A stretch of 64,000 nt of DNA from Sphingomonas sp. BT-65. GTDB lineage: Bacteria; Pseudomonadota; Alphaproteobacteria; Sphingomonadales; Sphingomonadaceae. Positions 1,298 through 4,081 of the stretch are shown here, piece after piece. The stretch covers positions 310,001 to 374,000 of the forward strand of contig NZ_JAPCIA010000002.1 in assembly GCF_026107375.2 (NCBI RefSeq), read 5' to 3'. Position 1 is the first letter of the stretch, and each line of letters begins with the position of its first letter. Below the pieces are notes generated by a model. The model saw nothing but the letters and a program-made list of their open reading frames with translations. It was not told where the DNA came from and ran no database searches. The translations under genes and the position numbers were made by a program.

Positions 1298-2116
1298 CTA
1301 GATCGGATTGCGCCTGGCCGGCGCCCCGTCCCCGTTCGCGCCCGCCTTCGGCCAGATCAGGCCCTCGCCGTCGCCTGCCTCCGCCTGCAGCCGCTCCCAC
1401 GCCTCGGCCTCGGCCAGCGCTTTGAGCCGCGCCTCCCCGCGCCGCCGCCGCTCCACGCCGTCGAGCAGCTTCATGAGGTGCGCATCGGTTTCTTCGGGGG
1501 TCGCGTAGCGCGGTCCGCGCGGCCGCGCCTTGGCTTCCGCCGCCAGTTCGATACGCCGTGCCACGTGCGCCTCGCGCAGCAGCATGCGCAGCAGCGATTC
1601 CGAATAGCGCCGCCGCGTCCCCACCACCTCGCCGCGCACCACCACCGGCTCCTCCCAGCCCTCGACCGCGCGTTCCCACGCGATCTGCTCGAGCATCGGC
1701 GCCGACCGCGCCAGCGCCGCCGCGAAGTCGCGCGCGAAGCCCGGCGATCGCTTGCGCAGCCGATAGACCGAGGTGTCGGAGATCCCGACCCGCTCGCACG
1801 CATCCTTGACCTTCCCCGTCTCCGAAAGCGCGCGCAGAAAGGCGCGCCGCCGCAGCCGCGTCCACCCGTCGAACCGCTCATGCGGATCGCCCGGCTCGAC
1901 CGCGGCGCCCTGCGCTTCGATCCACGCCGCCTGCTGCGCGGCCACCGCCGCGTCCCACCTGGCCCGGAATTCGCCGTTGCGCTGTCGCCGCTTATAGGCC
2001 GTTGACAGCGACCGCCCGATCGCCCCCGCCGCCTTGCGCGCCTGCCCGGTCGCCCGGAGCGCCATCAGAAAGGCGGTCTCGGTATCCGCCGTCCATCGTG
2101 AAAAAGATTTCCGCAT
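1298..2116 (-). CDS. Protein with two tandem helix-turn-helix repeats, probably SOS-controlled
   Basis: 272 residues, function unknown. Residues about 8-60 and 85-135 are two copies of one unit: W-x-A/L, a basic helix, 'TG(Q/K)xx(K)A', a recognition-type helix (RSLSTAYKRR; ISDTSVYRLRKR), then 'FxxxF/W-xxA'. This is the layout of small-terminase or transposase-like DNA-binding domains, so DNA binding is likely. The C-terminal half is charged and helical (ARRIELAAEAKARPRG; ERRRRGEARLKALAEAE). A GAGGGG ribosome site precedes the ATG at 2116. Upstream on the same strand are a TATAAC -10 (2155-2160) and a LexA-type box (2182-2196), which suggests DNA-damage induction. It could be a phage remnant or a chromosomal regulator. 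No terminase large subunit or other phage gene is nearby. Confidence 0.75.
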   Translation of the reverse strand: MRKSFSRWTADTETAFLMALRATGQARKAAGAIGRSLSTAYKRRQRNGEFRARWDAAVAAQQAAWIEAQGAAVEPGDPHERFDGWTRLRRRAFLRALSETGKVKDACERVGISDTSVYRLRKRSPGFARDFAAALARSAPMLEQIAWERAVEGWEEPVVVRGEVVGTRRRYSESLLRMLLREAHVARRIELAAEAKARPRGPRYATPEETDAHLMKLLDGVERRRRGEARLKALAEAEAWERLQAEAGDGEGLIWPKAGANGDGAPARRNPI

Positions 2117-2305: not shown

Positions 2306-2800
2306 ATGACTGATCAACTCCCTGCAGTGCTCGGCATGATTGATCCTAGACGTGCTCGGCGCTGTGATATTACCCGGGCCAAAGGCCCAGCCTATTTTGT
2401 TCCTTTCGATAGAAGAGAGGATCATATTTTTGTGTCAGGCGGAGAGCGGCCATACGCGGTCCTCCTCGGGGGACAATGGGCCGGCGAGGGTTTCGCCTTG
2501 GATCGCGCGGAAAATTGGCATGGCGTGGCGGTAGAAGGGATAGATGTTCGCGCAGATTTCGTATCGGCTTTCTCGCCATCAATGGATGGGAAGCGTCGCC
2601 TGGCGATCGTCGTTGCGCGGGGCCGCCTCGGCATTTTTGCGAGCATCAAAGAGGAAAACTTTGGCCAGACCATCATTGTCGGCTTGGACGGAGATTTCGG
2701 TCATTCCGATACTGAAGAGCGACTAGCTTTCTCTGAATGGAAAATTGTTCTGAGGCAAGGAGATGATGACATTACGCTGGCCATGATCAGCGCTGTCTAA
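2306..2800 (+). CDS. Hypothetical protein of the low-GC accessory patch
   Basis: 164 residues, not recognised. The ATG at 2306 follows AGAGGA with 7-base spacing. The protein is soluble, with no signal peptide or membrane segment, and alternating beta-type stretches (YAVLLGG, RLAIVVARGRLGIFASI, QTIIVGLDG) suggest a mixed alpha/beta or beta-sandwich fold. Base composition is clearly poorer in G+C than the flanking aconitase and receptor genes, and codon use includes AGA, ATA and TTT, which are rare elsewhere in the window. It sits between an SOS-type box and the TIR-domain gene on the same strand, so it may be cargo of the same transferred patch. A functional link is unproven. Confidence 0.7.
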   Translation: MTDQLPAVLGMIDPRRARRCDITRAKGPAYFVPFDRREDHIFVSGGERPYAVLLGGQWAGEGFALDRAENWHGVAVEGIDVRADFVSAFSPSMDGKRRLAIVVARGRLGIFASIKEENFGQTIIVGLDGDFGHSDTEERLAFSEWKIVLRQGDDDITLAMISAV

Positions 2801-2937
2801 TGGAGAATTCACTGCGGCACCCCGACCTACAGTTCCTTGGCACCGATCGTCGCAGACCGACTAGCGGAAGATAGGCCTTCGCCCTTCAACCGCTGCGCTC
2901 GCGCATCTGCCACTTGCCCCCACGCGATGTTCACGAT

Positions 2938-3924
2938 ATGATCCAGCGTAGGGCAAGAGCTGACTTTGAGGCAGCAGTGGACGCATTCATTTCATACTCT
3001 CATCGTGATGCCGCAGCCTTAGATCGCTTACACGTCCATCTCGCCGTTTTGAGGCGTGACGGGTTGATTGACGCTTGGTTCGACCGAGACATTCTTGCCG
3101 GTGACAACCTGGACCAAGAGATTGCAGAAAGGCTGGAAGCCAGCGGATTATTCCTGCTGCTCGTTACGCCAGACTTCCTCAATTCAGACTACTGTGTTGA
3201 AAAGGAAATGGCGCGCGCGATGGCGCGGCAAGCTGCAGGCGAAGCCAGAGTAATCGCGATCATCGCCGAGCCCTGTGATTGGCAGTCCACCAACCTTCGG
3301 AATATCAAAGTCGTACCGCAGGATGGCCGAGCGGTGAGCGAGTGGACTAATCCCAATAGCGCATATCTGAATGTTGTTCAGGAGATTCGTCGCGCGATCG
3401 AATCTGATCAGAGGCCGACAGAGTTGATACCTCGCGGCGCAGAGCCTCCAATTTCGCCGGATGCACAACGACGCTACCGCGCTAAGCGTGACTTCGACGA
3501 CATCGATCGTAGCGAATTTCGCCAGACGGCCTTCAATCAAATGCGAGACTATTTCCGTAGCGCGGTTAATGAACTTGATTCCCTCGATAATTTTCGCGCT
3601 CGCTATAGCGAACTGTCAGCTACATCTTTTGGCTGCACAATCGTGAACCGTGCTCGCGATCGAGGTACGGCCCACCTTACAGTGCATACGCGTAAGGGCG
3701 GGCGCTCTGGTTTTGGGGATGTATATTGGTTGTTCGAAGAGAATGCGCCTGATGATGGAGCTCACGGGTGGCTTTCGATCGAACACGATGAATTCGAACT
3801 ATACCTGCAGTCAAACGCCTTTCGCATGGGGAGGGGCGATGACCGCTCCCGCATGACTCCTATGCAGGCTGCACAAATGCTGTGGGAGAACCTGCTTGAA
3901 AAAGCAGGGATATCCTATGACTGA
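2938..3924 (+). CDS. TIR-domain protein with uncharacterised C-terminal domain
   Basis: 328 residues from ATG 2938; a TTG at 2914 in the same frame is possible, and neither has a clear ribosome site. Residues about 14-145 form a bacterial TIR domain: 'AFISYSHRD' (beta-A/box 1), 'AWFDRDILAGD' (box 2), 'LFLLLVTPDFLNSDYCVEKEM' split as strand then SxYCxxxE. Glu90 falls at the expected catalytic NADase position. Residues about 170-328 are a separate domain rich in aromatic beta strands (GFGDVYWLFEEN, GWLSIEHDEFELYLQ) that I cannot assign; it could sense a trigger or bind a partner. Bacterial TIR proteins commonly cleave NAD+ in anti-phage defence or make signalling nucleotides. Here that role is inference. 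It overlaps the next gene by 8 bases. Codon use is AT-shifted relative to neighbours, which suggests transfer. Confidence 0.82.
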   Translation: MIQRRARADFEAAVDAFISYSHRDAAALDRLHVHLAVLRRDGLIDAWFDRDILAGDNLDQEIAERLEASGLFLLLVTPDFLNSDYCVEKEMARAMARQAAGEARVIAIIAEPCDWQSTNLRNIKVVPQDGRAVSEWTNPNSAYLNVVQEIRRAIESDQRPTELIPRGAEPPISPDAQRRYRAKRDFDDIDRSEFRQTAFNQMRDYFRSAVNELDSLDNFRARYSELSATSFGCTIVNRARDRGTAHLTVHTRKGGRSGFGDVYWLFEENAPDDGAHGWLSIEHDEFELYLQSNAFRMGRGDDRSRMTPMQAAQMLWENLLEKAGISYD

Positions 3925-4081
3925 TTCTATTCGATTCCGGTGCAACAACTGTGGCCATCGATTCGAAGCCGAGGTTCTTACCGAAGCTGAGAAACGCGAG
4001 GCTCGGCGGCGCGATCGGCCTACCTCACCAATCGCATGCCCTGAATGCAGACGAACGGACGTCCGTCGCGGTTGGGAGTGA
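3917..4081 (+). CDS. Small zinc-ribbon protein paired with the TIR gene
   Basis: 54 residues. ATG 3917 overlaps the end of the TIR gene (its TGA is at 3922-3924) and has GCAGGGA 6 bases upstream, so translational coupling is likely. Four cysteines in two CxxC knuckles, C9-x2-C12 and C41-x2-C44, flank a charged helix (TEAEKREARRRD), a classic zinc-ribbon layout like rubredoxin-type or FmdB-type ribbons. The overlap, shared base composition and lack of another partner suggest it works with the TIR protein, perhaps as a nucleic-acid sensor or adaptor. The function is unknown. Confidence 0.7.
   Translation: MTDSIRFRCNNCGHRFEAEVLTEAEKREARRRDRPTSPIACPECRRTDVRRGWE

Follow-up and report, generated by a model that had tools for sequence, protein, structure and literature searches.

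The way in which TIR NADases become active is, to our knowledge, largely an open question, and a small locus of Sphingomonas sp. BT-65 raises it in compact form: here a gene for a TIR-domain protein stands between two short genes, one of which overlaps it, and we asked what these partners might do for the enzyme. The locus lies in a 64,000-nucleotide stretch (contig NZ_JAPCIA010000002.1, positions 310,001-374,000), hereafter the window, whose coordinates are used below. A preliminary description of this DNA had proposed an anti-phage cassette of two or three genes among three open reading frames (ORFs), and these ORFs were verified where it had placed them, all on the plus strand: gene 1 (2306..2800; 164 amino acids, aa), the TIR effector gene (2938..3924; 328 aa from its ATG) and a zinc-ribbon gene (3917..4081; 54 aa with two CxxC pairs). 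The end of the TIR gene and the start of the ribbon gene share 8 bp (3917..3924), an offset kept in relatives that may couple the translation of the two. Our analysis suggests that the locus is probably an NAD+-depleting abortive-infection cassette, in which the ribbon and gene 1, a divergent member of an all-beta family that we call C, form an accessory module holding, assembling or triggering the enzyme, and in which the effector can be exchanged.

The TIR protein matched TIR_2 (E 4e-17), TIR and ThsB_TIR, and did not match DUF4062, in a Pfam scan, and its TIR domain (residues 12-158; 2971..3411) adopts the TIR fold in an AlphaFold2 (AF2) model. Residues 16-320 are also covered by the PADLOC model PDLC00420, 'ThsB' (E 1.4e-57); since this model equally picks up TIR proteins linked to retrons and to restriction-modification (RM) systems, we read the match as a label only. 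The proposed catalytic Glu90 (codon 3205..3207) held up well: it is kept in 82/82 aligned TIR rows, window included, and is aligned with a Glu of the Cat1 TIR, and on that alignment we take it to be the known catalytic TIR residue. The protein is a predicted NADase. The length of 328 residues is right for the ORF but not for the likely protein: because close relatives begin at the equivalent of GTG 2977 (P0002: MDAFISYSHRD) and GAGG lies just upstream, translation probably starts there, giving 315 aa and making the candidate catalytic residue Glu77. The C-terminal domain (residues 188-322; 3499..3903), modelled by AF2 as a helix, six strands and a helix, had been called unassigned. It does have a precomputed label, PF27176, carried by the 120 rows listed of 578 homologues, the window's own protein among them, but PF27176 was not among the families of our Pfam scan. 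This domain evolves faster than the TIR domain (mean distance 0.58 vs 0.39 in 41 ribbon loci).

The pairing of this enzyme with the ribbon proved to be a conserved unit. The two CxxC pairs, C9/C12 and C41/C44, are separated by 28 residues, and in an alignment of 17 rows (the window's ribbon and 16 of its 17 relatives, P0136 being left out) C9 and C12 were present in all, and C41 and C44 in 16/17, one row being truncated. The Pfam family Zn_ribbon_8 reached 29.0 bits on the ribbon, below its cut-off of 34.4. We found 247 stretches encoding relatives in 84,980 species genomes and kept the best 80; 88 TIR proteins, including those of a family sample described below, were placed in a tree whose midpoint root serves for drawing only. 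A fully supported branch divides this tree into clade I (41 rows) and clade II (47 rows), and the ribbon (E < 1e-5) accompanies 36/41 rows of the former vs 6/47 of the latter; the clade-I rows without it are L010, L032, L034 (a weak match, E 9e-4), L039 and L040. Hence TIR homologues regularly lacking the ribbon, which the preliminary description had named as evidence against its reading, are the rule in clade II and not in clade I. The overlap was kept as well: counting the near-copies L005, L009 and L082, it measured 8 bp in 33 of the 45 ribbon-bearing loci and 11 or 14 bp in five more (8-14 bp in 38/45). Six other ribbons do not overlap, lying after the C gene (L044, L049, L089), upstream (L050, L056) or just past the stop (L088), and the ribbon start in L020 is unclear. 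In a class-wide sample of 385 genomes, the TIR profile was found in six (three partial) and the ribbon in two, the window's genome included.

Gene 1, described as unknown, turned out not to be an orphan. It retrieved itself alone in a large protein search, and when compared by phmmer with the ORFs of the homologous loci it matched neighbours of the TIR genes (best L067, E 2.6e-12, then L064, L014 and L017), which makes it a member of a recurrent unnamed family. An iterated profile of this family C placed it beside TIR genes of both clades, with a probability above 90 for 24 of the 918 ORFs of 100-270 aa lying within 2.5 kb of TIR or DUF4062 genes. Eighteen of these 24 were profile members; the six new ones were close kin of members (L015, L024), L092, a second gene of L049, and genes at two DUF4062 loci (L121, L122). 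The common order is TIR-ribbon-C or TIR-C; an upstream C was seen in the window and, with the gene on the opposite strand, in L002, and nowhere else. No component of the cassette diverges more than C, whose mean pairwise distance was 0.63, vs 0.39 (TIR domain) and 0.55 (TIR C-terminal domain) in the same 20 loci. The distances of the TIR protein correlate with those of C (Mantel r 0.73, 20 loci) and of the ribbon (r 0.71, 41 loci; ribbon mean distance 0.47), correlations that point to shared inheritance, not to contact. AF2 modelled the gene 1 product as an all-beta protein (pLDDT 87, pTM 0.83), and this model had no convincing match in the PDB or in the viral structure library BFVD; the sequence had none in Pfam, NCBIfam or PADLOC.

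The partners also occur without the TIR gene. We searched 397 genomes of the window's family separately for the TIR protein (E <= 1e-40), the ribbon and C (both E <= 1e-4), and found them in 11, 9 and 12 genomes, respectively. Seven of the nine ribbons belong to TIR cassettes, that of G344 being separated from the TIR gene by C. In the remaining two genomes, G081 and G249, the ribbon opens a tight three-gene operon in which a 372- or 375-aa protein lies between ribbon and C. This middle protein is a DUF4062 protein (E 1.9e-21 and 1.9e-18; L121, L122), whose tail has no sequence kinship to the TIR tail. According to the available part of a May 2026 preprint, DUF4062 proteins are TIR-like antiphage NADases, named Swarozyc, that assemble with the phage portal (PMC13174449). 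Since ribbon and C thus also flank a family reported as NADases, the effector is exchangeable. A DUF4062 protein (E 1.8e-30; open frame of 365 aa) is also encoded in the window's own genome, though not on the contig of the cassette (G000 contig C1 1900044; L175, L176), and its gene is a candidate of the Swarozyc type.

The 12 C genes of the family sample show a similar spread: five are in a TIR cassette, two are with ribbon and DUF4062, two are beside genes for proteins with hydrophobic segments, and three are weak matches without a clear partner. In the third group (G244, G150), C shares 4 bp with a neighbour whose product has 217 or 179 aa and two hydrophobic segments; these overlapped genes (L123 5395-6048, L124 5665-6204) may encode membrane effectors. 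At L154 and L178 the order TIR-ribbon-C is followed by a gene for a very large protein sharing 4 bp with C, and this protein, taken from L154, had no match in Pfam or PADLOC. Plasmids carry the same parts. The ribbon occurred in nine plasmid records, in seven of which the annotated feature under the match is the TIR gene; at L141 a TIR gene with a different tail comes directly after the ribbon, and at L142 a TIR remnant precedes it. C was found in six plasmid records, five times beside a TIR gene and once as a partial match with no TIR annotated nearby. On pNGR234a (L142 and L143), where the ribbon adjoins this TIR remnant, a C-terminal one, the pair is a decayed copy, and a TIR-C pair lies elsewhere on the same plasmid.

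The expected closeness to known defence genes was borne out at several homologous loci, in a survey that had no matched control and is a description, not a test of enrichment. A Hachiman-type HmaA helicase adjoins L003 (E 0), with homologues in L005 and L006; type I RM genes adjoin further loci (examples scanned: L041, L043, L061), a partial MkoA-like match lies beside another, and SIR2 proteins (L010, L130) and a KAP NTPase (L035) occur as neighbours. At L010 (1845-3278) the ribbon-less clade-I TIR gene is followed by a gene whose 477-aa product is a SIR2_2 protein similar to the N-terminus of Dsr1. In seven loci (L070, L071, L074, L077, L078, L080, L090) a gene for a retron-type reverse transcriptase (RT) lies directly upstream of a TIR gene of this family, at a distance of 15-21 bp. 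PADLOC gives retron type VI labels to the RT of L077 (RT_VI) and the helix-turn-helix (HTH) protein of L074 (HTH_VI); an HTH gene precedes the RT in 6/7, and 5/7 have a C-like gene in opposite orientation downstream. These loci had no Rfam match.

Taken together, the anti-phage reading is partly supported, by the conserved TIR-ribbon unit, by a third gene whose family is tied to the TIR genes and by the defence-gene neighbours, with the correction that the ribbon is not the only partner. Infection would cause TIR protomers to cluster, the TIR domain would then cleave NAD+, and the loss of NAD+ would end in abortive infection, with the TIR protein as executioner. Ribbon and C would act as an accessory module, probably in sensing or licensing. 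C, which diverges most among the components, would be the likeliest phage-facing sensor, a role for which it is no worse a candidate than the ribbon; the latter would be the likeliest adaptor, binding the TIR protein or nucleic acid. This reading draws on sequence comparison (homology, conservation, gene order, overlaps, effector exchange and defence-gene neighbours), from which we infer the NADase activity, the phage trigger, the cell suicide and the role of each helper. More tentatively, and with the odds somewhat against it, ribbon and C may be the core of an undescribed modular immune family: a two-protein sensing or licensing module, with a C fold unmatched in the PDB, plugged into exchangeable killers (the TIR NADase, the DUF4062 NADase, possibly small membrane proteins and the very large downstream protein), of which the window would hold the TIR form in rearranged order.

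A Thoeris-like alternative would have the TIR protein make a cyclic ADP-ribose signal that is received by C or by a distant ThsA. The full-length match to the 'ThsB' model is compatible with this, as is the position of C next to the genes for two-hydrophobic-segment proteins, an arrangement conceivable for a receptor and its coupled effector. However, the SIR2-type ThsA model PDLC00407 had no match at E <= 0.01 in the window's genome (other ThsA models and the Macro type were not searched genome-wide), and STALD (PF18185) gave none there above a cut-off that no control genome passed either. PDLC00407 is a working model that finds ThsA in G324, and among the ten other TIR-bearing genomes of the family sample it matched only in this one and in G380. 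The full-length ThsA of G324 (E 8e-178) shares a contig with a TIR-C pair ~12 kb away, which speaks for the alternative, but a short ThsB comes directly after this ThsA and another one ~2.5 kb further on (contig C13, L179 757-5227; PDLC00431); since the ThsA has its own adjoining ThsB, the island is probably a complete Thoeris beside a TIR-C cassette, with cross-talk between the two conceivable. The weak ThsA-like match in G380 (5e-10), a SIR2 protein ~4 kb after the TIR gene, fits PDC-S25 far better. We think such signalling improbable, and because the tested ThsA model is absent from the genome the cassette is not filed as Thoeris.

Active TIR enzymes are toxic, and the partner genes are small and overlapping, so a toxin-antitoxin arrangement also comes to mind, in which ribbon, C or both neutralise the NADase until stress or infection removes or inactivates them. 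Yet each partner is absent from some members of the TIR family, and the presence of both with a DUF4062 protein whose tail lacks sequence kinship to that of the TIR protein is easier to reconcile with a shared trigger than with a dedicated antidote, so that we would give this explanation little chance. A last possibility is that the TIR protein is a sensor and effector in itself, merely tuned by ribbon and C. Its fast-evolving C-terminal domain would suit that role, SpbK (PMC12847820) and Swarozyc (PMC13174449) operate in this way according to the available parts of both papers, and in clade II one or both helpers are missing from many homologues, a point that weighs against our own proposal. 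Against self-sufficiency stand the near-constant overlapping ribbon of clade I and the presence of both helpers around DUF4062, and we regard it as rather unlikely. The accessory-module reading remains the one that we favour.

The setting of the cassette suggests how it arrived. The claimed AT-shifted patch is real: GC is 0.539, 0.536 and 0.576, and GC at third codon positions (GC3) 0.52, 0.54 and 0.51, in the three cassette genes, vs 0.655 and 0.91 in the aconitase gene. That gene (Pfam E 1.4e-170) is the housekeeping flank on the right; on the left, where another had been claimed, the neighbour is an HTH gene (1298-2116, minus strand; HTH_23 E 4.4e-7) and no clear housekeeping gene. No RT was seen at the locus, whose neighbours are these two genes and whose three cassette genes had no RT match in Pfam (no genome-wide RT search was made). 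All ten congeners have the aconitase gene, and none has the TIR gene at E <= 1e-40. In two of them the left flank aligns too and the content before the aconitase gene differs; a third has there an AT-rich gene (GC 0.48; L172 1959-4748) for a 929-aa protein with pentapeptide repeats and a NACHT-like stretch slightly below the Pfam cut-off, a possible bacterial immune gene of the NOD-like receptor (NLR) type. With its content varying among congeners and a NACHT-like gene in one, the site preceding the aconitase gene seems to be one where immune genes are gained and lost, and the cassette was presumably acquired horizontally.

Compared with known systems, the cassette shares with Thoeris a TIR protein of an architecture that PADLOC files under its ThsB model, and differs in having a ribbon and a C protein instead of a match to the searched ThsA model in its genome. 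With retron type VI it shares the TIR family, but the window locus is without RT, and with FmdB-like and Zn_ribbon_8 ribbons the double CxxC, although the window's ribbon falls under the curated cut-offs and has the 28-residue spacing. SpbK, as far as the available text goes, is likewise a TIR NADase with a second domain that causes abortive infection, but its sensor is the N-terminal domain of the same protein, whereas the window has a C-terminal domain and two helper genes (PMC12847820). Swarozyc resembles the cassette in that at L121 and L122 a DUF4062 protein stands in for the TIR protein, flanked by both helpers, and differs in that the DUF4062 protein carries its own auxiliary domain; in both SpbK and Swarozyc the second domain binds the phage portal, again in the accessible parts of these sources (PMC12847820, PMC13174449). 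The words 'zinc' and 'ribbon' do not occur in the main text of the Swarozyc preprint, and we found no description of the ribbon-C module, its use with two NADase families or family C in the searchable literature. If our proposal is true, the system is compact and testable, family C offers a new and fast-evolving candidate for a phage sensor, and further effectors can be sought with either helper gene as bait. While SpbK and Swarozyc, as described in the parts available, hold the sensor within the same chain, two tiny helpers working across two NADase families would split sensing from killing. Defence by TIR NADases is already known; the module of ribbon and C, its occurrence with two NADase families and family C itself appear to be the new part.
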